From positions 1 to 20,706 of IMG/VR virus record IMGVR_UViG_3300020183_000558: a stretch of 20,706 nt of DNA. One strand, given 5' to 3'. A program made the position numbers and the translations under genes. This DNA comes from a virus. Below are positions 1,607 to 17,685 of the stretch, in pieces (within the stretch, counting starts at the first letter, position 1; each line of letters opens with the position of its first letter). Under the pieces are notes generated by a model. The model had not been told where the DNA came from. It saw only the letters and a program-made list of their open reading frames with translations, and made no database searches.

Positions 1607-3331
1607 TTATTTGTTAACTGTTGCATTTAAAACAAAAAGATTGTTAAATTTACTTGTTAGTAGTTTATTATTGTTGGGAATTGCCGTGCAAGTGACTGCA
1701 GATTCTGGAATATATTTTTTATTAATATAAATTTCGCCTGTAGCATAATCTATAGTTCCTACTTCCGATGAAGCAAGAGGGGCTCTTGTGGTTTCATTGT
1801 AGATAACTATAATTCCTTTTGTGCTGCTTATTTCGGTGTTTTTATAATCTCTAAACGTACAACTAGCTCCTTCGTATGTAAAGGTGTTAGTGATAAAAGC
1901 AGTTCCATAAGAAGTTATTGATGATGGTGTTCTTAGTTGATTAAATAGTTCTATCTTATTTGTAAAGCTATTTAAAGAAAATTGTATATTAGTACCAGTT
2001 ATATCTAAAAGACTTACTGCTGGATATTTATTTTTAATAGACAAGGCTAATTCTGTATTAGAAAATATTCTGTTAAATTGTAAAGTTCCATTGAATAAAG
2101 TTTCTAATTCTGACTTTATTAAAGCTGCAGTAGGAGTTCCTATCAATTGAAATGTAGAATTTATTGTTAATTGTTTAGCTGGGATATATTCTGGAATAAT
2201 AGTCATCATTCCTTTTTGTTTTAATAAATTCGTGAGTGATTTAACATTATCTGTTCCTATTGAAGGATCTGCAAATGAATAGAAAGATCTGCCTGGTAAA
2301 GGATATCTTAATTCTTCGCCACCCCAAACTATAATTTGCTCTGGTATGGTTATGCTTGGTGGAACTAAATTGCTATTTAAAATAACACCGTAGTAATCGT
2401 CTTTTGTTACCGCTCTATCAGAAGCAGCAAATAGTTTAGGTGCAAAAGATTTTATAATATCCAAATCTGGAACACCACCACCACTACTTATAGTAGAATC
2501 TGTCGGTGTACCTACTACACTAGTTAAGGCAGAATTATTGGCATTTTCTCCTACTGGTTTTATATAAGATATGGTTACTAGATCATTAGAGCCAATAGTT
2601 AATCCCTCAGTAAATCCAAAAATATCATCTAAAGTGGATCTAGAAAATAGGAGATAAAAACCATTATCGCGTCTTTCGATAAAATAAATTTTATTTGTTT
2701 CTGCGGTGGTTGATGGATTATTTGGATCAAAGCGTGTCCAAGTTTGATAACCACTTCCACTATTTACTTTTACTGTTACTGTGTTTATGTCTATATCGAA
2801 AGCACCAATATAGTAACTCTGAGTTTCTAGATTTATTTTGTCTAAAAGAACCGCGTTAGGATCGTTTATAACTTTATCTTTTACAAGTGTATTTGCATTA
2901 TATAAAATAACTTCAGTGTCTTCTAAAGTGTTTAGAGTGTAGTCTTTAATAGAATAGAATCGATAATTAACACCTAAAGAATTTACAGCAGTAAAGAGAG
3001 TTGTATATGCTGTTATAGCTGTTCCATCACCTTTTAAATTTACTGTAATTTTTGAAGAGTTTACTCCATTAACAACATATCCTAACGGTCTGATTATAGA
3101 TAAAACATTTTCTGGTATTTGCGATGTTCCTAAAAAGGTTTCATTTGCTATCATGTTTGCATAATACGTATAGAACATAGTATTATACGACAAAATATTT
3201 ACCAGAGTACTTAATGCAGACGATTCAAAATTATAGCTATTAAAATACGTTTGATTTTTTAAATAATTAACCAGAGATTTTTTAATCTCTGCAAAATCCA
3301 TAGAGGATATATTAATTGGTGGGTTTGCCAT
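1607..3331 (-). CDS. 6: Baseplate wedge protein gp6 (baseplate J-like)
   Basis: 574 residues (T4 gp6 is 660). gp6 dimers form the iris-like inner ring of the wedge, which widens at sheath contraction. The N-terminus has the family signature: FAEIKKSLVNYLKNQTYF, then ALSTLVNILSYNTMFYTYYANMIANETFL, then a P-E-N-V-L-S-I-I-R-P-L-G-Y helix. The middle contains a J-like part with a KSFAPKLFAASDRAVTKDDY motif at about residue 290-310. The last 100 residues form a beta-rich domain (EVGTIDYATGEIYI), typical of the cyanophage-type gp6 C-terminus. An AGAAGG ribosome site (3344-3339) lies 7 bases before ATG 3331, inside the end of gp25; the two genes are 3 bases apart. Confidence 0.93.
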   Translation of the reverse strand: MANPPINISSMDFAEIKKSLVNYLKNQTYFNSYNFESSALSTLVNILSYNTMFYTYYANMIANETFLGTSQIPENVLSIIRPLGYVVNGVNSSKITVNLKGDGTAITAYTTLFTAVNSLGVNYRFYSIKDYTLNTLEDTEVILYNANTLVKDKVINDPNAVLLDKINLETQSYYIGAFDIDINTVTVKVNSGSGYQTWTRFDPNNPSTTAETNKIYFIERRDNGFYLLFSRSTLDDIFGFTEGLTIGSNDLVTISYIKPVGENANNSALTSVVGTPTDSTISSGGGVPDLDIIKSFAPKLFAASDRAVTKDDYYGVILNSNLVPPSITIPEQIIVWGGEELRYPLPGRSFYSFADPSIGTDNVKSLTNLLKQKGMMTIIPEYIPAKQLTINSTFQLIGTPTAALIKSELETLFNGTLQFNRIFSNTELALSIKNKYPAVSLLDITGTNIQFSLNSFTNKIELFNQLRTPSSITSYGTAFITNTFTYEGASCTFRDYKNTEISSTKGIIVIYNETTRAPLASSEVGTIDYATGEIYINKKYIPESAVTCTAIPNNNKLLTSKFNNLFVLNATVNK

Positions 3332-3334
3332 CTA

Positions 3335-3727
3335 TTAGCCTTCTGTTCTATTTAATGTTAGGAATACGTTTCTGTCTACTTTTGGTACAGTTAAGGTTGT
3401 AACATTGACATTTACGCTCAAAATTGCATCCGTTTGTGTTACTGTAACTGTATTTACTTTTACTCTTGGTTCAAAAAAGTTTATCACATTTTTTATTTCT
3501 GATTCTAAAATTCTTCTTGATAAATCCGGTAAAACATCAAACTTTTTTTCCCAGAGACCAATTCTATTTGTTGTAAATGGCACTTCTCCATTCGAGCTTA
3601 ATATTATATTTTTAATAGATTGAATTATATCGGTTTCATTATTTTTTGTATTAATCCAATCTCCTCCCACTCTTTCTATTTTGCCTAGATTAAAATCTAT
3701 GTCTCTATATGTTGGAGTTACTGCCAT
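3335..3727 (-). CDS. 25: Baseplate wedge protein gp25
   Basis: 130 residues, close to T4 gp25 (132). gp25 links the wedges to the first sheath ring. It starts with TPTYRDIDFNLGKIERVGGD and carries N-x-x-D-I-I-Q-S-I-K-N-I-I-L-S-S-x-G-E-x-P-F, the N-terminal strand and helix conserved in gp25/W family proteins (also T6SS TssE). E-P-R-V at about residue 88 matches the family 'FEPRI/V' core motif. The family is sometimes labelled lysozyme-like, but no catalytic argument applies here. ATG 3727 overlaps the stop of the 352-residue gene by one base (TAATG), with a GGGAGA ribosome site 9 bases upstream, so it is translationally coupled. Confidence 0.95.
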   Translation of the reverse strand: MAVTPTYRDIDFNLGKIERVGGDWINTKNNETDIIQSIKNIILSSNGEVPFTTNRIGLWEKKFDVLPDLSRRILESEIKNVINFFEPRVKVNTVTVTQTDAILSVNVNVTTLTVPKVDRNVFLTLNRTEG

Positions 3728-4785
3728 TATTCTGTTTCTCCCGATTCGTCTGATTGCTTAGTTTTGTATGTCGGATTACCGTATTTATTTAGACTTGGTT
3801 CACTATATTTATCTGTATTAAATCCGTCTCTCATCAAATATAGTGCCATAGTATGTTTAGACGCCATTATAGTTCTTTCAATTCTATAAACCATCCAAGT
3901 TCCAGCAAATCTTTTATCTGTAAGAAAACTAGTACTACGAGATGTATGCAATTCGTCTTTTATAGGCATTCTAATGTTTATAAGACTGCCTATTTTTACG
4001 CCATAATCTCCATTTACTGTTATTTTTATTTGCTGAAATCTATACAACGCCATTAATGCTGCTCGTATAAGCGGTGTTTTTTCTGGAGTATTCCAAAAAG
4101 TAGCATTAGTTTTTGAATATTCTAGATAGTAAGGAAATAATGGACCTGTGATTTTTTGTGACCAAGACTGATAATTTTCTTGAACTCCATCTCCCAGAGG
4201 TAGCTGTAGCATATCATCTCTAGAAGAATCCGTATCTTGCTGTAATATTCCTTGGCTACTTATACCAGACAATCCTAAAGAATACGGATATTTGCCACCT
4301 AAATCACCAGTTGGACCAAAAAATGGCGTTTTTAATACATTTTCTTTCTTTTTTGCAACAGTTGGTTTATCTGATTCATAGTAAAAACAATTATATGGAC
4401 ATTTTTTATTAGAAAAATCAATACCCCACCAATCAGACGGCTTATTTTCGTCTATTTCTCCGTCCTTATTTGGTAAAACTTCTTGGATCAAAGTACATTC
4501 ATTAGTTGCAACTTTCATTTCTAAAATTTCTTTATCTGTAAATATTGGTTTATTTGGTCTGTATTGAGATATCAAACAATTACAAGACGGATCCCAATCG
4601 GGGCAATCTATGTTAGATACCGCACCAAATTGATTGTAACAAAAATCACTTACAGTGTTTATTGTTGATTTTTGCAAACCAAAAGAAAAAGGAACATAAC
4701 TAACACCCTCAGGTGCAGTAAATCCAGTAAAAGCACCACATTCATCAGGAGTAAAACTTACATAGTTTGTTATATTAGATGCCAT
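3727..4785 (-). CDS. Hub protein, C-terminal-like part (gp27 family)
   Basis: 352 residues. Residues about 210-320 resemble the C-terminal domain of gp27-type hub proteins: a helix (PLIRAALMALYRFQQIKI), a strand pair 'I-T-V-N-G-D-Y-G-V-K-I-G-S-L-I-N-I-R-M-P' (compare 'GN-x-x-L-x-x-G-x-x-I-x-I' of hub proteins), then FAGTWMVYRIERTI and HTMALYLMRDG (compare 'SGxYxVxxIxHxF...YxxxLxLxRDG'). The N-terminal 140 residues are different: Cys-rich (CPDWDPSCNC, CPYNC), with F-T-P-D-E-C-G at the start. The hub's N-terminal domains are encoded 7 kb upstream in the 871-residue gene, so the hub seems split. In the 13 bases between the giant gene stop and this ATG is an AATAAATA late-promoter-like sequence; no Shine-Dalgarno. 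The function is inferred from motif pattern only. Confidence 0.6.
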   Translation of the reverse strand: MASNITNYVSFTPDECGAFTGFTAPEGVSYVPFSFGLQKSTINTVSDFCYNQFGAVSNIDCPDWDPSCNCLISQYRPNKPIFTDKEILEMKVATNECTLIQEVLPNKDGEIDENKPSDWWGIDFSNKKCPYNCFYYESDKPTVAKKKENVLKTPFFGPTGDLGGKYPYSLGLSGISSQGILQQDTDSSRDDMLQLPLGDGVQENYQSWSQKITGPLFPYYLEYSKTNATFWNTPEKTPLIRAALMALYRFQQIKITVNGDYGVKIGSLINIRMPIKDELHTSRSTSFLTDKRFAGTWMVYRIERTIMASKHTMALYLMRDGFNTDKYSEPSLNKYGNPTYKTKQSDESGETE

Positions 4786-4792
4786 ATTAGTA

Positions 4793-4800
4793 TATTTATT
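4793..4800 (-). promoter_or_regulatory. Possible late promoter before the hub C-terminal gene (AATAAATA)
   Basis: One mismatch from TATAAATA, 7 bases before ATG 4785, at the junction with the giant gene. The leader would be extremely short or absent, so this is weaker than the site at 17213. Confidence 0.25.
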
Positions 4801-7800
4801 ACGAAGGCCAAGTTCTGTTTACGATATTTGCTGAATACTGTCTTAGATTGTCGGTATTGAATACGAATCCCGGTCCTAGATGTTGGAAATATGGATTCCA
4901 TCTGCTATAATCCACACTAAAACTTACATCTGTTGCTCCTCCAGTTCCGTCACCGCCGCCTAATATTACACTGCCCCAATCTGGAAAATACGCATCTAAG
5001 TAACAATTAAACCAGATAGAAGTATTCATTGCATAAAATGTTCCAGTTTTTGGTGGAGCACTAGATTGTGTCGAACAATAACATGATCTTGGAGGCCATA
5101 TTTCATCGCTTGCACTGTTGCTCCCTCCCCCTCTTACAGATTGAACCCAACGCAAACTTCCCAAATTTAATTTTACATGAGAAACAGGACTGTCATATTT
5201 TCTATGGTTCCAGCCAAGTTTAAATCCACCAAATGCTCCAGAGTAACTTTGATCAAATAATTCTAATCCAGAACAGGTTTCTGGATAACATTCTGGACTT
5301 GGGTCATTAATGAACATTGTTGCAATATTATCTTTATTTACTCCTAAGAATAAAGGAAGCTCCCATCTTCTGTGTCGCCATTCTTTGATATTTTTAAACC
5401 AATCAAATCCGTCCCAACATTGAGTTGAATTATAATCCCAAGCCCACCAATAATCTGCCCAGACCGGCGTAAGAGTACTTTTAAGTCTGTTGGTATAATC
5501 ATTTGGATTGAATGGATCTCCGTGCCATTTTCTAAAAATAATTTTGCTACTATTTCCAGTGGTTATTGGATGAGATCTGTACATAGCATTATACAGATTT
5601 CTATACTTATTTTTTCTTACATTAAATGAATATCTATCTGGTAAAACACTATTTGTTACAGATGATGGTGCTTCATTCAAGTAATTTTCACCAAAACAAC
5701 ATGCTTTTAGTATTTGTTTTTTCTTGTTTTGTGTTCTTGGGAATGGTGTTCTGTCTTCTGGATTTTTTGGATCCATTGGTCTAGAACTTGGTATTCCTAG
5801 AAGACAACCATCTTCTCTAGCCTCTACCCAATTTTCACGAATAGTGGGTTTACCATATTGTATAAAATTCCATAAAGACATACTAGAAAATTGAGTTCCA
5901 CTAGTAGTGTTGTAGATATTACCTTCAGAGCCACACTCCGTTCCTCCTCGATAATATGTGGGCTGGAATAAATCACCAATGCTGTCTCCTCCTATTTGGG
6001 TAGTCCAATAACCATCTGTAGGATTGACGAAAGCATATCCTAACCATCCTTGTGGATGTGATGCTTCAAAAGGAATATCACCAGCAACTCTATCTTTATC
6101 ATCATCTGTGTTTGTTTTCGTGGTAAAGAAGTTTGAATGCCCTCTATTACTTAGCCAATCAGACCAAAATCCTCTGACACCGGTTCCGTTTAGTTTATAA
6201 ATTGGTAAACAAAGAGTAACTGCATTTGTTAATTGCACAGGATACCAAATAGTAGCAGTATCGGGGCCTTTACCCGAATACAATATTAGAGGATCTAAAA
6301 TTTCATTTCCTTGTGATCCTATATGAAAACTTCTTCCGCCACCATAGCAATTATACCCGTTACCACACATACTCTTATTCCAGATTGGCCATGCACCAGA
6401 CATATCACCTAAACCAATTTCTCCTTGTTTACTACCAGCAGATATAGCCAATTTAGGTGAAGCACCAGACTCCAAGTAAGTAATTGGATTTTCACAATTA
6501 GCGTATTGTACTAAAGCTATACCACCAGTATCAGCATCTCCAACTATTAATTTTTGTCTTTCTTCTACAGTAAGAGATTCTGGATCTGTTTGATATTTTG
6601 TTAAAATTTCTTTTGCTGTAGTATTAACTATTGCTCTGGGATCAATATAATTAGGATCTTCTAAACTTATTCTACTATTGCACGAGCATTCATCACTGAA
6701 CCGACCCCACCTATATTCGTAATTTTCTTTTGCTTGATTTGGTTTTATTGTCTTGCCTAATTCGTTTGGATATTGTTCAAATTTTCCTTTTGCTTCTACC
6801 GTATAAAAATATCCATCATTAAGTTGAGTTTCACTTACATTATCAATCTGTACTCCTCTTCCAAACATTATAGTTTCGCCCGGAAGTAAATTTATAGGAA
6901 CCATTACTCGGAGTCTTTTTATTATTCTGCCTCCACTAGTAAATCTATCTTTAGCTATGCCCAGCCATACCCCATTTTTTCCTTGAGAATTTATTTTCAA
7001 ATTACCGATTTCTTTGTCCAGGATAATATCACCAGTTAATTCAGTTATTTCTTGAACAGCATTAACTATGTCATCATTTTGTAGATCAAATCCCCAAGCA
7101 GAAATTTTTGCTCCAGTAAATGGAATAGAGCAAGAGGAACATCCTGTTTCAGAATCGCCAGCTAAAGGTTCTATTTTATATTTTTCGTTTTGTAATAGAT
7201 TTTGATATGCTATATCTTTAGTATGAAAAAACACCCCGGGAGGAGGAGGAGTAAAATCTAAAACATTTTCTTGATCTGATCTAAATTCTGGATAATGACC
7301 CACAGCTTGTTTATACGGACCTGTTATACAAATATTTTTATTGAAAGGATATTCAAAATCTATAGAGTCTTTAATATAACGAGATTTACTAAAGCTGCTA
7401 AAGTAAACCAACGGCATAAAATTGTATGCGTATCGTGGAGGAGGAATGAATGCAGATTGTAACAGATAAGAATAAGAAGAATGTATTTCTGTCATAAAAA
7501 CAGGATCCATTCTGTTAGTAATACTCCATAGTTCTGTATCAAAATATCCTTCCATATTATATTTTGGTCCTATGTCTCCTCCATGTGCAGGAACAACAAC
7601 TAAAGGATAATCTATTTCCGTATAACTTGTGGAACTTAAAAATTCTGTATCATTTTTGTTTATCAACCAAGAATTTAATAAACCATCTTCTTCTAAAGAA
7701 GCCCATCTGGGGATTAAATAACGATTTAAAGATGGCCACGATTCTTCTATGGGTGTTGATAATTCTCCAAAAGAATTGTATTTATTTAAAGCAGCATTAT

Positions 7801-10800
7801 AAGCAGAACAATTTCCTTGTATCGATCTGTACTGATAATCACTAAATTCATATTCATCTCCATCTTCTTTTACATTCATAAAATATACTGGAGCTGATCT
7901 TATTATTATTCTTTTTAAATTTTCTCTGTCTTCTGGACCATCGTAAGGAATGAATGTAAACGTTTTTCTTTTTATTTTAGTTACCTCACCAATATTCCAT
8001 ATTATTATTTCTTGTTCTCCTGTTTCTGGATCAATTACTATTTCTTTTTGATATAGTGGTTTATTTTTTAATTCAGGAATTATTTTTTGAACCTGATTGG
8101 TTGATACTATTATTTCGTCGGGCAAAATATCACCAAAAACATTTGCAGAACATCTATATCCATATACATCTCTTATTGGCGGTGCGGTTTCTGGACAATC
8201 CCAAACTCCATATTCATTAAAAGTGCAACCAGAACATAATTGTTCATTGTAATTAAATTCACAACCGGTACAACCCATTCTGCCCATCCAACCAGTTCTT
8301 TCTGCTGTCTCATAAGTTATGCCTTTAAAGCAGGGATCACACCAATTTTGTATTATGTTATTATTGCCTCCATATGCATACTTGTTTCTACAGTATAGAG
8401 ACAGTTCTGAGGGGAATTTTCCTGGCGGAACTTCTATAATATTATGAGTAAATGAATTTGCCGGAGCATAATAATAATTTATTTTTGGTTTTAGAGGTCC
8501 ATCAGACCACACATCTGTTGGAAAATATTCTGGATTAAATGCTTTGGTTGCTGCACTTTCAAAATTTCTCCATGGTTGTTCATGACCACCAGGAGCATCT
8601 CCTTCTATTTGAGATCCTCTTAATTGATTAAAATAAACCCATTGATACGATTCAGAGGTATTTCTTATATCGGGATTGGCATCATAACCTATATGATTTA
8701 ATAAAGTTCCTTGATGACCAGCCATTTTAAAACTATCGGTTGCATAATCAGACCAGACACAATCACATGTTGCTCCCGTAAAAGGCTTAACTCTTTGATC
8801 TCCGCGTGTTCCTATAAGGTTAACAGAAATTCCATTTTGTTGAGAACTGTTTGTTTTGTCTACTTTAAAATGTAATTCTTTTTTCTTTACATTTTGCAAT
8901 TCGCCATTAATTATTTCTTTTCTGTATTTTGTGATTTTAATATCTAAATCAAATAACAAACGAGAAGAAGAATTTAAATCAAATTCTGGCTGATACCAAT
9001 CAGCAGTATTTCCCATAGATCTTAATAAAATTAAAGGACTGTCTGCCTTATCAGTAGATCTAAATCTCCAATTTAGATTACTAGATTTGTCTATTTCTCC
9101 TCTATACGGAAAATCTATTTTTGGTGGTTTATCTGGATTTTGTATTATTAAATTATGGTATCTACCAGCACTTAGATGATTTACTAATTGGTATTGACCA
9201 CTGTTGGCATTTAAAATATTTGGAATACAACCAGTACTGTCTTGTCCTTCGGGAGTTCCTACACCACCGGCACCATATACACTACTTTTATATTGTTCTT
9301 TAGTGTATGCACCACTATTAATTTCTTCTTGTGTGGGTTTTACAGAAAGCGAAGCTACGGTTCTATCGTAACCAACTGCACATTTAACAAAATATTCATC
9401 AGTATTACCAAAAAGATTAGATTCATATACAAAATGTTTATTAATATATGGAGTTGTAAAATATTCTTGTGAGTTTTTTAGACCTATTTGTGTTAGTTGT
9501 TGAAATCTATCATCTCCCCAACCATCTAACATAAATCCATATTGATTATTACAGCATTGAAATGCTTTATTTGGTTCTGTAGAGGGCTGACAACAACTAA
9601 AATAATCTTGTTCTGGTTTATAATAAGAAGATGCACCTTCGCTCAAACTAATTCTTGGTTGTTCACAACACTCATTTCCTATTTTAGATCCATCTGTGCA
9701 ACCACAACAACAATCTCCATTTCTGCATGTATTACTCTGATCAAAATTAGGATTTGTACTTGTTCCTCTAGGTATATCACACAATGCTGCATCGCCATTT
9801 TTTCTATAAATTATTCTACCGTCGTCTTGATATAAAGATTGACAATAATTATTAAACTTTTTTCTAGCAAAAACGGTATGATTTGCTGTAGACGAAGTTA
9901 TTAAAAATAAGGTATCGCTTATACCATAAAAAGTGTCTGTATATTTAATTCTTCTAAAATCAAAATACTCATCTACTAACAAGTGCATTGGAATGTTATT
10001 TTCTCCTACTTTACATTCCAATGAATTTAACTTAAACAGATAATTTGGATTGGCTTGTCGTACCAGTAATTCTCCTCCAATTGTTTGATTATATGGATCT
10101 CCAGGCATACCATTGCCCCAAGAAAAAACTCGAATAGTAACAAACCTTAGTTCAGAATCTCTTGGATTAAACTGTAACCCGGTATAAGGATCTTGAATAT
10201 GAACGATATCGTTTGAATTTAAAATATGTTTTCCAAGGTCGTATCCAGAAAGATAAACAGGATATTTTATCAAACCAACTATATGTCTACGACCAGCCCA
10301 AATATCAATAAATTCTATTTCTTTGCTTATAGGATCATTTGGTAATCCAAATTCATCTACAGAAGATTCATAAGTTTTAACAACATTAAAGAAATTTTCA
10401 CGATCTCCCCAGAATGGAATTATTTCTCCTCTTCTTATTAAATGCTGTTCTCCTATCGAGTTGGTTGCTTGAAACTTTACATCATTACCTACAATATAAA
10501 AATTAGTTGTTGCTATTCTTGGTCTTATCGATAGTCTATTACGGTAACCCGAATTACCCCATATTTCAATAACTCCGTCAGAATCTGTATTTCTTGATCT
10601 GCCATCAAAAGCTAAAGTATGCCCAGCATTTAACATGGCAACACAGTGTCCACCACCAACAGCTAGTTTTACTATATCACTAGAATTAGTTTTAAATTCT
10701 GTTGGAATAGAAAGACTACCACTATTATTAGAGCCCCAACCAGTAATTCCATCCTGTAATACTGCTATTGTGAAATCTAAACCACAATTTATGTCTAAAA

Positions 10801-11788
10801 CAGGAATTTGTTTTAATTCTTCGGGTCTGCTTAAAGTGTAACCTGCAGTTCCAGTTAAACCAAAACAATCACAAAGACCATTATCTAGCAGAACACACGA
10901 GTGGTATTCTCCTGAAGACACTTTGACTACATTGGCTCTTTGATTTTCTTCATCTAAAAATGTAATACCATCACAACCAGTTTTATAACATTCTGGTGAA
11001 ACTATAGAATCACATTTTATTTTTTTACTTAAAAAATTTATTATAGTATTAGAAAATAAATCAGAACCATTATATCCTTTAACATTTCCTGGATGTATGG
11101 CATTCCACCAGCTTATCCAATAATCTCCTGGATATGATGTATTTGTGTGTTGATTTTTATCATGTGAATACGAATTAATAATTATTTCGCCTAATCGACC
11201 GGTATAATTATAGCTTTCTACTTGTTTTGCATTTTCAAAAATATCAGGAATAATATTTGAAATCATCAGTCCTCTAGAACGTGAAGAGGTATCTGCTGTT
11301 TGATAAGGTCTGCCTACACTAGGATAATGTGTTATTAATCTGTAGTATTTGTTATCACATATTCCTTGATTTGATTCTGATGCTGCTATTTTTTCTGTAA
11401 GTGGCCATTCTGGTTTAAATCCAAAACCTTGTGGTCCAGACCAGCCACTGGGATTAACACAATCTAAAGAGTCACATACACTATATGGTTGAATTGGATC
11501 AGAATGATTCCATTCAAATGCTGGATCTGCTTTTTCTGGATTGAAAGTACCATCCAAAGATCCGTTTCTCATTATAGTTTCAATTTCTAGGGGTCCTTTA
11601 GGTGGTTTTACCACGCCTAAATCTTGCATTTCTTCTCTTAACCAAAAAGGCTTACCCCATATACTGTCTAATATAGAATTTTGAAATGGAGCACCACAAT
11701 CTTGTAAAATTTCACGACCACATGGAGATCGTGTAACTCCTGGTTTTGGCGGTGGGGTTCCACAACAATTATTGGTGATTGTAAACAT
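4799..11788 (-). CDS. Giant Cys/Trp-rich structural protein with RCC1-like repeats
   Basis: 2329 residues, the largest gene here, between the two hub-like genes. No full-length family is recognised. Residues about 287-885 hold RCC1-like beta-propeller units: SSGEYHSCVLLDNG, NCGLDFTIAVLQDG, GITGWGSNNSG, AVGGGHCVAMLNAG, WAGRRHIVGL, CAVGYDRTVASL, SAGRYHNLII, separated by long insertions. One insertion (688-746) is a Cys cluster with CRNGDCCCGC and three CC pairs. Further C-x-x-C sites follow near 1150-1190 (CDPC, CTGC, CSGC) and at about 1550 (CSSC). By hand count there are about 60 Cys in total. Residues about 1595-1685 carry a beta pattern (LLPGETIMFGRGVQI, GYFYTVEAKGKF) reminiscent of hub proteins. 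The 2050-2120 region is very Trp-rich. No signal peptide or membrane segment. An in-frame stop lies just 6 bases before ATG 11788, so the start is firm. Likely a virion baseplate component, by context. Confidence 0.75.
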   Translation of the reverse strand: MFTITNNCCGTPPPKPGVTRSPCGREILQDCGAPFQNSILDSIWGKPFWLREEMQDLGVVKPPKGPLEIETIMRNGSLDGTFNPEKADPAFEWNHSDPIQPYSVCDSLDCVNPSGWSGPQGFGFKPEWPLTEKIAASESNQGICDNKYYRLITHYPSVGRPYQTADTSSRSRGLMISNIIPDIFENAKQVESYNYTGRLGEIIINSYSHDKNQHTNTSYPGDYWISWWNAIHPGNVKGYNGSDLFSNTIINFLSKKIKCDSIVSPECYKTGCDGITFLDEENQRANVVKVSSGEYHSCVLLDNGLCDCFGLTGTAGYTLSRPEELKQIPVLDINCGLDFTIAVLQDGITGWGSNNSGSLSIPTEFKTNSSDIVKLAVGGGHCVAMLNAGHTLAFDGRSRNTDSDGVIEIWGNSGYRNRLSIRPRIATTNFYIVGNDVKFQATNSIGEQHLIRRGEIIPFWGDRENFFNVVKTYESSVDEFGLPNDPISKEIEFIDIWAGRRHIVGLIKYPVYLSGYDLGKHILNSNDIVHIQDPYTGLQFNPRDSELRFVTIRVFSWGNGMPGDPYNQTIGGELLVRQANPNYLFKLNSLECKVGENNIPMHLLVDEYFDFRRIKYTDTFYGISDTLFLITSSTANHTVFARKKFNNYCQSLYQDDGRIIYRKNGDAALCDIPRGTSTNPNFDQSNTCRNGDCCCGCTDGSKIGNECCEQPRISLSEGASSYYKPEQDYFSCCQPSTEPNKAFQCCNNQYGFMLDGWGDDRFQQLTQIGLKNSQEYFTTPYINKHFVYESNLFGNTDEYFVKCAVGYDRTVASLSVKPTQEEINSGAYTKEQYKSSVYGAGGVGTPEGQDSTGCIPNILNANSGQYQLVNHLSAGRYHNLIIQNPDKPPKIDFPYRGEIDKSSNLNWRFRSTDKADSPLILLRSMGNTADWYQPEFDLNSSSRLLFDLDIKITKYRKEIINGELQNVKKKELHFKVDKTNSSQQNGISVNLIGTRGDQRVKPFTGATCDCVWSDYATDSFKMAGHQGTLLNHIGYDANPDIRNTSESYQWVYFNQLRGSQIEGDAPGGHEQPWRNFESAATKAFNPEYFPTDVWSDGPLKPKINYYYAPANSFTHNIIEVPPGKFPSELSLYCRNKYAYGGNNNIIQNWCDPCFKGITYETAERTGWMGRMGCTGCEFNYNEQLCSGCTFNEYGVWDCPETAPPIRDVYGYRCSANVFGDILPDEIIVSTNQVQKIIPELKNKPLYQKEIVIDPETGEQEIIIWNIGEVTKIKRKTFTFIPYDGPEDRENLKRIIIRSAPVYFMNVKEDGDEYEFSDYQYRSIQGNCSAYNAALNKYNSFGELSTPIEESWPSLNRYLIPRWASLEEDGLLNSWLINKNDTEFLSSTSYTEIDYPLVVVPAHGGDIGPKYNMEGYFDTELWSITNRMDPVFMTEIHSSYSYLLQSAFIPPPRYAYNFMPLVYFSSFSKSRYIKDSIDFEYPFNKNICITGPYKQAVGHYPEFRSDQENVLDFTPPPPGVFFHTKDIAYQNLLQNEKYKIEPLAGDSETGCSSCSIPFTGAKISAWGFDLQNDDIVNAVQEITELTGDIILDKEIGNLKINSQGKNGVWLGIAKDRFTSGGRIIKRLRVMVPINLLPGETIMFGRGVQIDNVSETQLNDGYFYTVEAKGKFEQYPNELGKTIKPNQAKENYEYRWGRFSDECSCNSRISLEDPNYIDPRAIVNTTAKEILTKYQTDPESLTVEERQKLIVGDADTGGIALVQYANCENPITYLESGASPKLAISAGSKQGEIGLGDMSGAWPIWNKSMCGNGYNCYGGGRSFHIGSQGNEILDPLILYSGKGPDTATIWYPVQLTNAVTLCLPIYKLNGTGVRGFWSDWLSNRGHSNFFTTKTNTDDDKDRVAGDIPFEASHPQGWLGYAFVNPTDGYWTTQIGGDSIGDLFQPTYYRGGTECGSEGNIYNTTSGTQFSSMSLWNFIQYGKPTIRENWVEAREDGCLLGIPSSRPMDPKNPEDRTPFPRTQNKKKQILKACCFGENYLNEAPSSVTNSVLPDRYSFNVRKNKYRNLYNAMYRSHPITTGNSSKIIFRKWHGDPFNPNDYTNRLKSTLTPVWADYWWAWDYNSTQCWDGFDWFKNIKEWRHRRWELPLFLGVNKDNIATMFINDPSPECYPETCSGLELFDQSYSGAFGGFKLGWNHRKYDSPVSHVKLNLGSLRWVQSVRGGGSNSASDEIWPPRSCYCSTQSSAPPKTGTFYAMNTSIWFNCYLDAYFPDWGSVILGGGDGTGGATDVSFSVDYSRWNPYFQHLGPGFVFNTDNLRQYSANIVNRTWPS
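9134..10930 (-). repeat. RCC1-like repeats with long insertions in the giant protein
   Basis: This encodes roughly residues 287-885 of the giant protein. The 'G-x-x-H/F-x-x-x-L-x-x-G' units begin near residues 291, 333, 375, 497, 803 and 873. The matching W-G strands are at 351, 409 and 557, with G-W-G-D-D near 757. Spacing is irregular because of large insertions, including the Cys cluster encoded at 9551-9727. More diverged than the gp53 propeller, but the same type. Confidence 0.65.
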
Positions 11789-11800
11789 GATTTATAAAGA

Positions 11801-11808
11801 TATTTATG
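11801..11808 (-). promoter_or_regulatory. Possible late promoter before the giant gene (CATAAATA)
   Basis: One mismatch from TATAAATA, 12 bases before ATG 11788 and overlapping the stop of the 871-residue gene. Similar near-matches occur by chance in this AT-rich sequence, so support is modest. Confidence 0.35.
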
Positions 11809-14419
11809 GTATGGAACAGGTATTATCACACAGGCCATCGTGTGCATTAACCACATCAAACAAGAATAAATACGGTATTTCTTTTTTAGTATTTACAACA
11901 CCCAATTCAATTTCTAAATCAGAACCTGGAGCAGTTTTACTATATTTTTCAGCATCACCATTTATAGTATCAGACAAAGTAATACCAGTTATTCCTTGCT
12001 CACCTTTAATCATGGTTTGCATTATTTCTCTGGGTATTACATGCATTTGGACTATTCTACCAAAATTCCATTTTTTTTCTTGTTTAGAACAATCACCCAG
12101 ATATCTAAAATTACCAATAGGCATCATATTGTATCCTAAAGGATATGAAGTTTTACAATTTTCTTTGGATCTGTCAAAAGGAACAGATATGCCCGGATTG
12201 GTTATAAGAACTTTGCATTCGTCTATGGATTGTAAAATAACAGGATCCGCATTTACAATATCATTAGGACTTAAAGTTATACCAACAGTGTTTAATACTT
12301 CATTTATGTTATAAGCTCTAGTATCTTTAGTTTCATATAACTCATCTTTTTTATCAATAACAGGAGGATCTGCTTTTGTCCAGTCTGTTTTTGGTTTATA
12401 TTTTTTAACTAAAGGTCCATGTCCTTCTAGAGCTCCTTTTGGTTTAACAAAAACAAATGGATATGATTCATGGCCATCAAATTTTATAATTTCTTCTCCA
12501 TTTTGTAATATGGCTTCTGTGCTTTCTCTTGGCCAAAACTCTACTTCTATCCAGTTGTATGAGTAAATACCTCCCGGATCTTTATCAAAAGTTATTCCAT
12601 CTCCGCCATAAATTTTATCTGCTTTAGTTAGTAGTGCAAAGAAATTTAATGGTATTTTTCTTTCACAACAAATATTATTTAAATAAAAGTTCCATTTTTC
12701 GTTGTGTTTTTTGGCATCAATATATTTTTCTCTAGCTTCAGTTAGTTTCCATTTAATATCATTGTATATTAAGTAAGCACCAGCTCCGGGTAGTTCAGAA
12801 AAATCATATTGTGATTGCCAGTATTCTTCTTCCATTCTATTGTGATTATGAAAATCGTATGTTAGACCGAAGACACCGCCATCATAAGATTCTTTATACT
12901 TATCTTTATCCCAAGTAAACCCTCTGGTTCCAATATCTAAAAATTCCCACCAAGGAGATCTATCCGAATTATGAGTGGTTCTATCATAGAATCCGTAAAT
13001 CTCTTCTGATATTCTGAAAGATGACGAATTAAAATCACCTTCATTATTTGTTAATTTATAGTCTTTGCTACTAAATGGTGGATACCCCGTAACACTATCC
13101 CATTTTTTGTTTGTGATGATAACATCATTTTTAAGTTTTAAATTATTATAAAAAAATATATCATTATAATAACTGTATTTAATTAATTTTTTAATAAACC
13201 TGTCTGTTCCAACTAAAACATTTCTAAAAGGATTTCTCCAATTTGGTTTTACTCTAATATATTCTGAAGCCAGTGCACCGGATGCTATAAGCTCCATGGG
13301 ATCAGTATCTTTTAAAACTTCCATAGAAACAATCGTATTCATAGTATTAGTGTTGACATCCGGCCAAAATTCGTAAGTTTTTTCTTTATCTCTTTCTTCT
13401 CTAACCATTTTTGATATAGATTTAAAATTAAATCCATCTAAATCTTCCCAAAACATAAAATCAACATAATTTGGATCTTCTTTTAAACAAGCAAAGTTTT
13501 TTATATAATTAATAAATTGAGTTATTCTTGGTATTTTAGAGATTTTATAACTAGGCCAATAAAAATATTCCGGTTTTACCCATACGTCATTATATGTTGC
13601 ATGAGCTCGAAGCTGTTTTGGTTGTCTATTTCCGGCAATAGTTCTTTCGTCGTTATAATTTTTAATTAAATTTCCAAAAAACGTTGGTGTTTTAGGTTCC
13701 CATTTATTTTGTAAGATGTATTGTTCTTCACCAAACTCATCCAAAATAGGAACATCGGTATCACCATCAGTATCAAGAGGATCTTTGGGAGTTTTTAATA
13801 AAGTCACTTCTAATTTTGGAGTTACTGGTGTTGTTCCTATATCTTCTAAAGTTTCATAATCGTCTGATATTGGCCCTATAAAATTTTGTATAGACTCAGA
13901 ATTTTTTCTATCATAATTTTTAGTTATAAAATCTGAATGAACAAATTCTTTAGAAGCAAACCGTATAGAAATATAATTTTGTGTACCCATACCTCTAGAA
14001 ACTTCTTGTGAAGCTGGATCGTTCATCACATCTATATCAATAATATAAAAAAATAAAGTTTTATCAGTAGTTATTACATCTTCAAAATCATCATCAGTAT
14101 CTAAAAATTGTAAATCAATTTCTATTTCTCCTGTTGTAGAAATACCTAAATGATCAAAAATATTTGTGCCGTCTATTAAAATCAAAGTGCCACTCATATG
14201 TGGTTCATTAATATCTTCAATAAAACTTAAAGAATAAAAAGAAAGAGTATCTGTTTTTTGAGAAGTTTTATTTATTAAATCTATTTCAAAATTATTTTCT
14301 ACATCATCTATACCAGAAACTACGTTACGATCTGTAACTAGTCCTGGACTATTAGAACGTAAAATCAATTTTTTGATTACTATATTTGGAGACTGTACTT
14401 GTCGTGGAGAATTTAACAT
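11804..14419 (-). CDS. 27: Baseplate hub protein, gp27-like (N-terminal domains)
   Basis: 871 residues; T4 gp27 is 391. gp27 trimers form the central hub ring through which the tail tube passes. Residues about 55-125 show the first hub domain: SFYSLSFIEDINEPHMSGTL, then LILIDGTNIFDHLGISTTGE, then I-D-L-Q-F (compare 'I-x-x-L-x-I-x-E-D-I-x-x-P-x-x-S-G-x-I-x-I-x-D'). Residues 291-338 have YKISKIPRITQFINYIKNFA, Y-V-D-F-M-F-W-E-D and FKSISKM, the 'nYI-x-x-x-A...F-x-F-Y-E...F-x-S-I-x-x-M' pattern of T4-like hub proteins. Residues 400-700 are rich in Trp, Tyr and charge and look like an insertion. The C-terminus reads YLFLFDVVNAHDGLCDNTC. The expected last hub domain is absent here and is found in the 352-residue gene. 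ATG 14419 is 2 bases after the gp53 stop. Confidence 0.72.
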   Translation of the reverse strand: MLNSPRQVQSPNIVIKKLILRSNSPGLVTDRNVVSGIDDVENNFEIDLINKTSQKTDTLSFYSLSFIEDINEPHMSGTLILIDGTNIFDHLGISTTGEIEIDLQFLDTDDDFEDVITTDKTLFFYIIDIDVMNDPASQEVSRGMGTQNYISIRFASKEFVHSDFITKNYDRKNSESIQNFIGPISDDYETLEDIGTTPVTPKLEVTLLKTPKDPLDTDGDTDVPILDEFGEEQYILQNKWEPKTPTFFGNLIKNYNDERTIAGNRQPKQLRAHATYNDVWVKPEYFYWPSYKISKIPRITQFINYIKNFACLKEDPNYVDFMFWEDLDGFNFKSISKMVREERDKEKTYEFWPDVNTNTMNTIVSMEVLKDTDPMELIASGALASEYIRVKPNWRNPFRNVLVGTDRFIKKLIKYSYYNDIFFYNNLKLKNDVIITNKKWDSVTGYPPFSSKDYKLTNNEGDFNSSSFRISEEIYGFYDRTTHNSDRSPWWEFLDIGTRGFTWDKDKYKESYDGGVFGLTYDFHNHNRMEEEYWQSQYDFSELPGAGAYLIYNDIKWKLTEAREKYIDAKKHNEKWNFYLNNICCERKIPLNFFALLTKADKIYGGDGITFDKDPGGIYSYNWIEVEFWPRESTEAILQNGEEIIKFDGHESYPFVFVKPKGALEGHGPLVKKYKPKTDWTKADPPVIDKKDELYETKDTRAYNINEVLNTVGITLSPNDIVNADPVILQSIDECKVLITNPGISVPFDRSKENCKTSYPLGYNMMPIGNFRYLGDCSKQEKKWNFGRIVQMHVIPREIMQTMIKGEQGITGITLSDTINGDAEKYSKTAPGSDLEIELGVVNTKKEIPYLFLFDVVNAHDGLCDNTCSIP

Positions 14420-14421
14420 TG

Positions 14422-16338
14422 TTATTCGAATTCAGAAATATTATAATTTAATTCTTTTTTACCGGCTAACAGGTCTTGGTAGATTTTAGAATCTATTTTT
14501 TGCAATAGATTAGAATCAGCATAAATAAATTCTTGTTTTAGTAGTATATTATACTCATCATAAATTTTTTGTAGTGTTATCAGTCTATTATCTTTATCTG
14601 GAGTAGAATAATTAGTTATATAAACAGTCTTCCATATGTTTTCTGTGACTGGTTGTGATTCGTTGTCTATTCGTATTTCTACTGTTGAATTCTTTTGCTT
14701 TTGTATACCTATAAGTTTATGTCTTATTTGATTAACTTCTTCTCCATTTCTCCATATGGATACAACTGTTCCTGTTGGATCGTCTAAGAATAATTCATCG
14801 GTTGTTAAGTTTCCACCATAAACTTTACACACAATTCGTTTATAATCTAAATCTACTTGTGTAACAATTCCAGCAAATCGTTTAGTCGAACCTGTTAATC
14901 CCCTAAGAACAACATGACTATCTCCAGAATAAATTTTATCAAATTGTCCGTATATGGTGTAGTCGGATAAAGTATAATCGCTTTGTGTAATTCCTGTTAT
15001 TGTAGCTCCACTAAATCCTGCTTTGGGTATCTTACCCCAAGCGTACACTTCATTATTTTCAGTTATTGCGGCTGAATGTTTTTTACCTGCAGCTATAGCT
15101 ATAAATGTTTTATTTGGTACATTACATTGACCATGTGCTGTCATTCCCCATGCATATACTGTTCCATCGGTTTTTCTTGCAAGTGCATGATTGTATGTTG
15201 CGGATACTTCAACAAATCCTGTTCCAGATGGCATATTTGTTATTTGGCCGTAATCGTTGGCTCCCCAAGCAGTAAGACCACCATTTCCCATAACTCCAAC
15301 ACAAAATTGATTTCCACATGCAACATCTATAAAAGTTACCCCAGTAGGAGCACCAGTAAAATTATAGTCAACCAGATAACCTGTAGATCTAAGAACTACA
15401 CCACCGTGTGCTCCTGTGTCTGTTACATGATACCATGAAGTTTTTATTCCGGTTGTTATACCGGCTAAATAATCTGTCAGCTCACTATAAACATTACCAA
15501 AAAATTCTAAAGTACCACTACTATTTATGGCAATTAGTTTATCATGGCTGGCTTCTATAAATGTGTATCCGCCTTCCGGGGATTTATATATGGGCTGTCC
15601 GTTTATATCATCATTATCAATAAAAGAAGCAAATCCACTGTTTAAAAGAGATTCGTCGCCCCAGCAGTAGATGTATCCATCTTTATCTCTAACACACGTT
15701 ATCTTTTGCCCAGCAGTTAATTGCACTATATTATTATGATTATCGAATAATATGGGAACTAAAGATTGACCGTAATGGTGCCAATTTTCTAATTTATTTT
15801 CATAATACAATGCTTCTATAGTAGAAGTAGCACGTAAAATACCAGCACCAAAACATTTAATAGCATACGGCCCCATTCCTGTTTCAAAAATAACAGTGTC
15901 GCCTATTTGCACTTGACTTAAATCAACCCCTTCATAGGAATCAATATCTGTCTGTTCGTACAGATTAAAAGCGGTTCCATCATAAGTAATCGACGCCTCT
16001 GCTGTGGAAGGCAAAAACGGAGAAGAATTTGAAAATTGTAATACTCTTGTATCGTATCTTTCAAGTTCTTCATATGTTCCTTTTTGGCCCAGTATAGTAG
16101 TCCAATCAAATGGATTTTTAATTCCATTTAATAACATTAATAACCAATAATAGTTGTAATTTCCATACAACCTAAGCGACAGCTGTTCTGGTCTTTCTCC
16201 AGAATAAACTGTTTCTGTTTCAACAAATTCTGGATCGTCTATACTCAGATTAACCGATTTAAAAATATTTTTAATATCCTTTAAACCACCAGTTGCACCA
16301 AAATTATATGATGTTAAATTGGGAAAGTATTTAATCAT
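14422..16338 (-). CDS. 53: Baseplate wedge protein gp53 with inserted RCC1-like propeller
   Basis: 638 residues, against 196 in T4 gp53, which clamps wedges together at the inner baseplate. Residues 1-90 are a clear gp53 N-terminus, including the LysM-like unit: VYSGERPEQLSLRLYGN, then YYWLLMLLNGIKNPFDW (T4: GSPRPEELANAIYGN, YWVLLMCN). From about 204 to 480 lie RCC1-type repeats, for example AGQKITCVRDKDGYIYCWG, ACGNQFCVGVMGNGGLTAWG, ARKTDGTVYAWG, AAGKKHSAAITENNEVYAWG and SGDSHVVLRG. They sit inside a beta domain that resumes at FAGIVTQVDLDYKRIVCKVY. The C-terminal 60 residues are helical. The start is firm: ATG 16338 overlaps the gp48 stop (ATGA) and an AAAAGGA ribosome site ends 6 bases upstream. 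Product roles: wedge joining (family knowledge) plus an unknown propeller role. Confidence 0.88.
   Translation of the reverse strand: MIKYFPNLTSYNFGATGGLKDIKNIFKSVNLSIDDPEFVETETVYSGERPEQLSLRLYGNYNYYWLLMLLNGIKNPFDWTTILGQKGTYEELERYDTRVLQFSNSSPFLPSTAEASITYDGTAFNLYEQTDIDSYEGVDLSQVQIGDTVIFETGMGPYAIKCFGAGILRATSTIEALYYENKLENWHHYGQSLVPILFDNHNNIVQLTAGQKITCVRDKDGYIYCWGDESLLNSGFASFIDNDDINGQPIYKSPEGGYTFIEASHDKLIAINSSGTLEFFGNVYSELTDYLAGITTGIKTSWYHVTDTGAHGGVVLRSTGYLVDYNFTGAPTGVTFIDVACGNQFCVGVMGNGGLTAWGANDYGQITNMPSGTGFVEVSATYNHALARKTDGTVYAWGMTAHGQCNVPNKTFIAIAAGKKHSAAITENNEVYAWGKIPKAGFSGATITGITQSDYTLSDYTIYGQFDKIYSGDSHVVLRGLTGSTKRFAGIVTQVDLDYKRIVCKVYGGNLTTDELFLDDPTGTVVSIWRNGEEVNQIRHKLIGIQKQKNSTVEIRIDNESQPVTENIWKTVYITNYSTPDKDNRLITLQKIYDEYNILLKQEFIYADSNLLQKIDSKIYQDLLAGKKELNYNISEFE
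14899..15729 (-). repeat. RCC1-like propeller repeats within gp53
   Basis: This encodes roughly residues 204-480 of the gp53-like protein. Six to seven degenerate units of 35-55 residues are visible, each with the pattern [A/S]-x-G-x-x-H/F-x-x-[A/V]-x-x-x-x-G-x-[V/L]-x-x-W-G. The best are the ones ending YCWG (about 227), TAWG (359), YAWG (398) and YAWG (435). The repeats are at protein level only; no direct DNA repetition is seen, so they are old or fast-diverging. In RCC1 proteins seven such units close into a circular beta-propeller used for protein or DNA binding. Confidence 0.85.
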
Positions 16339-17210
16339 CCAAAATCCTTTTGAGATCTTATTATTAGATTTTGTCCGTCCAGATTTAGTGCTGGTTCTAG
16401 TTCGGTAAAATTAAGTTTAATATTAACAGCTAAAGGCCATCGTTTACCATTATAAAAAATTGTATACGGTATATTTTGAATAGGAGATCTATTGATGTCT
16501 ACTCTAGCTAAAACGCAAGTTAATCCTTGACCGTCTAATTGCGATTCAGATTCGCCGGGTTTGGTACTTATACCAAATGTCCATATATCTGGATGAGTCA
16601 TTGTGTAAATAGATCTAGTAAAAGCTCCGGGATGTGCATTTGCTTGAAATGCATTTGCTATTCTAGAAGCAGCTTGTGCAGACTCTCCCGATTTTGCGAT
16701 TAAATTAAATTCAAATGTGTGCGTTCTTCTACAGCCAGGTTTTAATACAGTTTCTGTGTGATCAAATCTAAACACATTACCACCGGTCATAAAGCTTTCA
16801 AACAATTCTCCAGACGCAATTGCTCCCTGTGCCAACATTCCTCCAACATTTTGGAGAGTGTTTGTTTGTGGAGCTGCTTGATTAGCCGGTTCGGATGGTT
16901 CTGGATTTATAGGAACAGTTCCACCAAATCCTGGTGCTGGTTGATTGTTTTGTCTTGTTCCAAACGTCTTTTTTAATACTTGTTCTACACCCCTCATCTG
17001 TATAGATGCACTGTTAGCATAAGGAATATTATTTAAAGTATTAAAATTATTAGGATATGGTAAAACAATTTTATTGTTACAATTACTGGTTACTGCAGCA
17101 GGAGTCCTATAAAAAGCCCATGTACTATAGTTTGCAGAGTAAAAAGTGATCCAAACCGGAACGTCTTTTTGGCTAAGATCGCTTGTATGTGGAAAGGTTA
17201 ATAATACCAT
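16335..17210 (-). CDS. 48: Baseplate tail-tube cap protein gp48
   Basis: 291 residues (T4 gp48: 364). gp48 forms the ring on top of the hub that joins it to gp54 and the tube. Order of landmarks: an N-terminal FPHTSDLSQKDVPVWITF strand, I-V-L-P-Y-P segment (T4: ANILLPRS), a Pro-rich linker at about 88-120 (QPAPGFGG, PEPSEPANQAAP), then ETVLKPGCRRTHTFEFNLIA, matching the gp48 'NRTKVFTWDLTPRS', followed by an A-x-x-I-A-N-A-F-Q helix, H-P-D-I-W-T-F-G-I (T4: NPTVWMVKNFG), CVLARVDINRSP and the final INIKLNFTELEP strand (T4: TLEITMREI). It is the first gene of the leftward operon. No ribosome site is seen before ATG 17210, and its last 4 bases overlap gp53. Confidence 0.85.
   Translation of the reverse strand: MVLLTFPHTSDLSQKDVPVWITFYSANYSTWAFYRTPAAVTSNCNNKIVLPYPNNFNTLNNIPYANSASIQMRGVEQVLKKTFGTRQNNQPAPGFGGTVPINPEPSEPANQAAPQTNTLQNVGGMLAQGAIASGELFESFMTGGNVFRFDHTETVLKPGCRRTHTFEFNLIAKSGESAQAASRIANAFQANAHPGAFTRSIYTMTHPDIWTFGISTKPGESESQLDGQGLTCVLARVDINRSPIQNIPYTIFYNGKRWPLAVNIKLNFTELEPALNLDGQNLIIRSQKDFG
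16345..16351 (-). promoter_or_regulatory. Ribosome binding site of gp53
   Basis: AAAAGGA on the minus strand ends 6 bases before ATG 16338, inside the end of gp48. Together with the ATGA overlap it fixes the gp53 start and shows translational coupling. Confidence 0.75.
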
Positions 17211-17212
17211 AT

Positions 17213-17220
17213 TATAAATA
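17213..17220 (+). promoter_or_regulatory. T4-type late promoter (TATAAATA)
   Basis: An exact copy of the T4 late -10 box, in the 25-bp gap between the divergent gp48 and gp4 genes. It points right, towards gp4, leaving a leader of about 10 bases. In T4 this box is read by RNA polymerase with gp55 and gp33 plus the gp45 clamp. The reverse strand of the same gap has no exact copy, so how the leftward operon is started is not clear. Confidence 0.75.
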
Positions 17221-17235
17221 TATAGTTAATATTAT

Positions 17236-17685
17236 ATGGCCTATAAAACAAAATATACACCAGAAAACCCCCAAAAGTATACAGGAAACGTCAACAACAT
17301 AATTTGTAGATCTCTTTGGGAACGCAAGTTTTGTAAGTATCTTGATAGCAATCAAAATGTTATTCGGTGGGCAAGTGAAGAGATAAGAATACCGTACATG
17401 TCTACAATTGACAATTCTGTGCACTATTACTATCCCGATTTTATATTTGAAGTGAAAAATAAAGACATGATACAGACTTTTATGGTGGAAATTAAACCAA
17501 AAAAGCAAACTGTTAAACCCAAACCAAAGAAAAATAAAAAAACATATTTGCAAGAATCTATATTATTTGAAATAAATACTTGTAAGTGGAGTGCTGCTCG
17601 CAAATATTGCGAAAAACAAGGTTGGATATTCAAAATCTTAACAGAAGATGATATATTCAAAACACCAAAAAGGACTAACAACTAG
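17236..17685 (+). CDS. 4: Head completion protein gp4 (PD-(D/E)xK nuclease fold)
   Basis: 149 residues, like T4 gp4 (150). It is needed to finish DNA-filled heads before tails attach. The sequence follows T4 gp4 closely: KYTPENPQKYTGNVNNIICR, SLWERKFCKYLD, W-A-S-E-E-I-R-I-P-Y, H-Y-Y-Y-P-D-F, V-E-I-K-P-K-K-Q-T. The nuclease-type residues are intact: E29 (LWER), D68 (YPDF), E85 and K87 (VEIKPKK), a TnsA-like PD-(D/E)xK arrangement. A Lys/Pro-rich loop (PKPKKNKK) follows. ATG 17236 sits about 16 bases after the late box, with no Shine-Dalgarno. The next gene starts at the base after its stop. Confidence 0.94.
   Translation: MAYKTKYTPENPQKYTGNVNNIICRSLWERKFCKYLDSNQNVIRWASEEIRIPYMSTIDNSVHYYYPDFIFEVKNKDMIQTFMVEIKPKKQTVKPKPKKNKKTYLQESILFEINTCKWSAARKYCEKQGWIFKILTEDDIFKTPKRTNN

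Follow-up and report, generated by a model that had tools for sequence, protein, structure and literature searches.

A giant cysteine- and tryptophan-rich protein is encoded between two pieces of an apparently split gp27 baseplate hub gene in a distant T4-type phage

Hubs of the gp27 type are common to contractile injection machines and to the tail tips of siphophages. In T4 gp27, the second tube domain is described as comprising residues 207-239 and 307-368 (PMC3004832). Hubs built from two polypeptides are described for phage lambda (gpL and gpJ) and for a gene transfer agent (GTA; Hub and Megatron), with domain I of the lambda hub residing in gpL and domains II-IV in gpJ (PMC10721106; PMC10038345). 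In T4-like phages, nrdA/mobE of Aeh1 and gene 43 of phage 25 are reported as split genes in which the products of two coding regions reassemble (PMC2988022). Agrobacterium phage Milano is reported to possess Cys-rich structural proteins (2.1% Cys) and a disulfide network in its baseplate and sheath (PMC10811340), and RCC1 units have been described in a protein of phage phAPEC6 (PMC7247149).

The stretch of DNA analyzed here (the window) is a virus record of 20,706 bases, whose minus strand carries, in this order, genes for a gp48-like tail-tube cap (16335..17210; phrog_230, E 1.4e-5), a gp53 baseplate wedge protein with an RCC1 insert (14422..16338; Pfam/PHROGs and an RCC1 profile), a first hub piece termed hubN (11804..14419; 871 aa), a giant protein (4799..11788), a second hub piece termed hubC (3727..4785; 352 aa), and the wedge proteins gp25 (3335..3727; PF04965, E 1.3e-6) and gp6 (1607..3331; phrog_219, E 4.7e-62). 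With homologues of gp48, gp53, gp25 and gp6 adjoining the giant gene, the operon is, judged by homology, the baseplate operon of a T4-type contractile-tail phage, and it shares the gene order 48-53-27 with HTVC008M and 53-27 with phiM12. The gp6 protein matches 2290 phage records, all of them below 60% identity and the best-ranked near 27%, and the phage is classed on these comparisons as a distant T4-type virus. A gene for a TnsA-like endonuclease (17236-17685; Pfam, E 3.8e-19) is located between the tail-tube and tube-cap genes, near the place of the annotated head-closure gene in HTVC008M.

The family phrog_350 is assigned to the gp27 hub by profile comparison: hhalign of six T4-type gp27 sequences against 13 single-ORF members of the family gave an E-value of 1.2e-10 over most of the length, and the phiM12 member, which lies between gp53 and gp5, was annotated by its depositors from an HHpred hit to gp27. 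Along the 436 positions of phrog_350, hubN matches at positions 12-139 and 173-281 and hubC at 349-433, and the hub pieces of a related phage (see below) show the same two-part pattern. By hhalign, columns 33-265 of the family fall on hubN (E 1.2e-9) and columns 343-423 on hubC (E 6.1e-9), while the giant gave no match to the hub profile (E 0.71; best sub-threshold stretch, residues 1623-1671). Direct comparisons of T4 gp27 with hubN (E 0.018) and hubC (E 0.23) were not significant, so the link to T4 runs through phrog_350. By these alignments, hubN would comprise the first three-fifths or so of gp27 followed by a C-terminal extension of about 440 aa, and hubC a Cys-rich N-terminal part of about 240 aa followed by the last 85 or so residues of gp27, which correspond to the second half of tube domain 2.

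The hubN match ends at column 265, near T4 residue 261, and the hubC match begins at column 343, near T4 residue 297. Set against the domain limits of T4 gp27, these columns place the giant gene where the domain hdIII is normally encoded. Since the break would fall inside tube domain 2, in the hdIII loop, a single barrel would need two polypeptides. A search for hdIII in hubN, hubC and the giant did not find it, although few columns are conserved in the hdIII stretch of the hub alignment and the result is therefore weak evidence of loss. Taken together as gp27, hubN and hubC are homologous over both halves and collinear, but they do not form one polypeptide containing hdIII. In comparison, the hubs inspected, 16 of the 808 matching phage records (the 13 family members plus S-CAM4, ACG-2014j and S-RIM44), are all single ORFs.

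The initial annotation had proposed a search for homologues of the giant, and among the matches listed from 2.9 million viral contigs (viral_contigs) there was one relative, with the same neighbors: contig IMGVR_UViG_3300022752_000086 encodes a full-length counterpart of 2247 aa (locus L002, 9980-16723). Scans of genome_contigs revealed no homologue of the giant; all contig scans were seeded by short exact peptide patterns and can miss distant relatives. No match to the full giant was obtained by tblastn against 50,697 phage records, and searches with pieces of it at E ≤10 returned 49 records (best E 0.05) and 3 records (best E 2), which were taken as chance; those of the 49 with a named product are helicases. 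Likewise, tblastn of hubN and hubC gave no match in the phage records. The order hubN-giant-hubC recurs in L002 and is known from these two phages only. In the window, the 871-aa ORF and the giant are in frame with each other and the giant and the 352-aa ORF are not, whereas in L002 neither junction around the giant is in frame. A single assembly error, a frameshift or stop read-through was rejected as the origin of the arrangement, as L002 has the same three ORFs in different relative frames. In both phages, gene 27 thus appears, from the alignments, to be split in two with the giant encoded in the gap, an arrangement for which no report was found in the open-access literature.

Compared along their full lengths (2329 and 2247 aa; 2170 codons aligned), the two giants share 54% identity. 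By codon position, identity is 0.63 (first), 0.69 (second) and 0.54 (third), which resembles the values for gp6, gp53 and the hub pieces and therefore argues that the giant is constrained like a core baseplate gene and evolves at the rate of its neighbors in the operon.

The placement of promoter-like sequences bears on how the three ORFs may be expressed. The motif TATAAATA, which we take to be the T4 late-promoter core, is rarer in exact form than expected by chance (one against 5.0 expected in the window, six against 9.4 in L002), and only its placement is notable, not its abundance. Four of the six exact boxes in L002 lie 5-25 bases ahead of an ORF that starts on their own strand, against 0.04 expected for a uniform distribution, and two of these precede the giant and hubC; boxes just before ORF starts are found at 9962, 16715, 4564 and 470 in L002 and at 17213 in the window. 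In the window, boxes with one mismatch precede these two genes as well. Their placement hints that the giant and hubC may each be expressed as a late gene of its own. On visual inspection, no clear ribosome-binding site (Shine-Dalgarno) precedes hubN, the giant or hubC in either phage, whereas gp25 and gp6 have one.

Read from sequence, the initial annotation had described a 2329-residue ORF at 4799-11788, of no full-length family, with RCC1-like units, some 60 Cys, a dense Cys cluster at residues 688-746, several CxxC sites and Trp-rich stretches. Each of these features was recovered, and the strand, absent from that description, is minus. The giant contains 62 Cys (2.66%) and 56 Trp (2.40%), of which 48 and 51, respectively, are kept in the relative; in this phage, Cys is scarce in gp6 and gp25. 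The first Cys cluster (residues 688-746; 9551..9727) holds 11 Cys, eight of them conserved, with CCC at 693-695 and CC at 707, 732 and 745, as had been described. A second cluster (residues 1133-1213; 8150..8392) holds nine conserved Cys including CDPC, CTGC and CSGC. Five CxxC sites were located, of which those at 1150, 1173, 1185 and 1550 are kept in the relative and that at 694 is not. A Trp-rich stretch at residues 2110-2142 (5363..5461) reads WADYWWAWDYN...W...EWRHRRW. In 5000 composition-preserving shuffles, clustering of Cys and Trp exceeded chance: CC pairs numbered 7 against 1.6 expected (3/5000 as high), CxxC sites 5 against 1.6 (112/5000), the Cys peak was 11 per 59 residues against a mean maximum of 5.6 (0/5000), and the Trp peak 8 per 45 residues against 4.7 (9/5000). 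Against Pfam and PHROGs, the giant gave matches of E 0.11-0.12 at best besides RCC1, and the RCC1-like HERC1 domain was the sole PDB match of a profile search at E ≤0.1. AlphaFold models built from the two sequences only had mean pLDDT values of 29.7 (residues 285-890) and 25.9 (residues 1550-2329).

By its profile matches, the giant is an RCC1 repeat protein with about three clear units (residues 281-411; 10556..10948), above the curated cut-off: RCC1_2 (PF13540) scored 27.3 bits against a cut-off of 22, and residues 280-394 matched WD40_RLD with E 1.7e-11 and 44.5 bits, under that model's cut-off of 150. Blades were also scored with an iterated RCC1 profile, a regular expression and a three-sequence seed profile having proved too narrow; it recovered two units in the giant (10.5 and 12.6 bits) and two in its relative (20.4 and 24.1 bits), with 6.4 as the best score of 400 shuffles. 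Further, degenerate blades may follow at residues 412-885 (9134..10555), where the motifs WAGxRHIVG, FSWGxGMPGD, MxDGWGDD and SxGxxHN are conserved in both giants. The profile scores of these later units are weak and near noise, and strand pairs modeled at the proposed blades carry no weight at the given pLDDT. With such blades, the giant might form a complete seven-bladed propeller. RCC1 units also occur in gp53, where an insert at residues ~196-443 holds four clear units, as it does in the relative. Some cyanophages have, ahead of the hub, a gene annotated as NlpC/P60, transglycosylase or peptidase M23 instead of gp53; together with the RCC1 insert, these annotations give the gp53 gene the look of a place where modules are added repeatedly. 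Elsewhere on the relative's contig (locus L017, 2619-17744), a 5041-aa ORF with a collagen-like start contains 101 Cys and many RCC1 units, and its neighbors of 864 and 716 aa (4.05% and 4.75% Cys) consist in part of repeated GACC..GxC-type units. At locus L019, a 1304-aa ORF (6217-10131) has halves that are alike by eye, a possible internal duplication, and the ORFs at one end (10398-11965) resemble cellular genes by eye (methyltransferase- and endonuclease-like) and could be host-like genes or the mark of a chimeric end of the contig.

Judged by position and conservation, the giant is, somewhat more probably than otherwise, a structural component of the virion that belongs to the baseplate hub, docked at a split gp27 ring. 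The initial annotation had placed it in the hub or the baseplate sheath; the former part is upheld by position, as the gene lies inside the split gp27 gene, and the sheath has no support, as no sheath family in Pfam or PHROGs matched. In the proposed model, gene 27 would have been split in the loop that interrupts the second tube domain, at the position of hdIII, and the giant gene would fill the break. The gp27 trimer, which extends the tail tube, would be formed by co-folding of both hub pieces, each bearing additional domains. Docked next to these pieces at the distal rim, in the usual place of hdIII, the giant would surround the end of the tube as a large collar and, through an N-terminal RCC1 propeller, bind wedge proteins or the cell surface. 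Metal or disulfides could stabilize the Cys-rich clusters of the giant; the conserved Cys of both clusters look like metal ligands, yet conserved, clustered Cys would fit either chemistry.

Position inside the hub gene need not mean position inside the hub, and the giant might instead be an adhesin or tail-fiber-like virion protein at the baseplate periphery that is merely encoded in the break of gene 27. In Synechococcus phage S-SRM01, RCC1 proteins adjoin the distal tail-fiber gene, so that RCC1 units do not by themselves imply a place in the hub, and the 5041-aa ORF of the relative's record, rich in RCC1 units and Cys, has a fiber-like look. However, both phages carry the giant gene within the hub gene and not among fiber genes, no collagen-like repeats were seen in the giant by eye, and the wedge gene 53 of its own operon carries RCC1 units as well, which makes the peripheral location rather unlikely. 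It is less probable still that the hub is not split at all, with hubN holding an undetected second half, hubC being a separate protein with a tube-like domain and the giant lying between two genes. In its favor, ~440 residues of hubN are left without assignment after its hub match, hubC also matches phrog_24827, a tail family of 282 positions, and hdIII was located in none of the pieces. Against it, the phrog_350 matches of hubN and hubC are collinear and complementary in both phages, and the hub profile gave no match to hubN 400-871 (E 0.21) or hubC 1-235 (E 0.62) while matching hubC 200-352 with E 2.5e-9. Replacement of gp5 by the giant, which would then close the distal tube end and form or carry the puncturing tip, is very unlikely. 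In its favor, cyanophage, pelagiphage and phiM12 records with enough flank have a gp5 hub/lysozyme gene immediately after gene 27 or separated from it by a few small genes (one of these records names the putative gp5 only as "baseplate hub protein"), here gp25 comes after the hub genes instead, Gp5_OB, Phage_base_V and PAAR matched nothing in the window or the 56-kb relative, and hub insertions are reported to close the tube in T5 and the GTA (PMC10038345). Against it, both records are fragments and gp5 may be encoded in another part of the genome, as in T4, where it is distant from gene 27, and Pfam detected no OB fold or lysozyme family in the giant.

Returning to the giant as a hub component, a break in the second tube domain with a huge protein in the gap would, if true, mean that the ring tolerates assembly from pieces. 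It would further suggest that a separate protein can substitute for hdIII or enlarge it, the long helix of hdIII being the hinge of tube opening in T5. Two questions thereby become testable, namely what share of the hub has to be covalently continuous and whether closure of the tube is possible in a contractile phage that lacks a gp5 spike. The split hub and the giant together hint at a tail tip unlike known ones. The fullest version, a hub of three kinds of chains in which two polypeptides complete the tube-domain barrel, the giant replaces hdIII and also closes the tube without gp5, and metal- or redox-sensitive Cys clusters hold it and could act as a trigger, is speculative and would be surprising if it held throughout.

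In comparison with known systems, the T4 gp27/phrog_350 hubs of HTVC008M, phiM12 and cyanophages resemble this locus in the 48-53-27 neighborhood and in their homology to both pieces, but those inspected are single ORFs of ~390-480 aa, whereas here two extended ORFs flank a giant. The RCC1 units have phage precedents in S-SRM01 and phAPEC6; the S-SRM01 proteins are regular and occur with tail fibers, while the units found here are degenerate, belong to a giant in the hub operon and are present in gp53 as well. Milano, as described, sets a precedent for a disulfide-linked baseplate, while here Cys is concentrated in one giant protein, where it may form disulfides or bind metal. The reported inserts in Aeh1 nrdA and phage 25 gene 43 are a homing endonuclease or intercistronic sequence, in contrast to the conserved giant protein found here. 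The GTA likewise has a two-chain hub (Hub/Megatron), for which the cited passage gives no break point (PMC10038345). In lambda, the described break lies between hub domains I and II, whereas here a T4-type phage with a contractile tail would have it within the second tube domain and with a giant gene in between. Two-chain hubs have thus already been published; what would be new here is the position of the break and the giant encoded in the gap.
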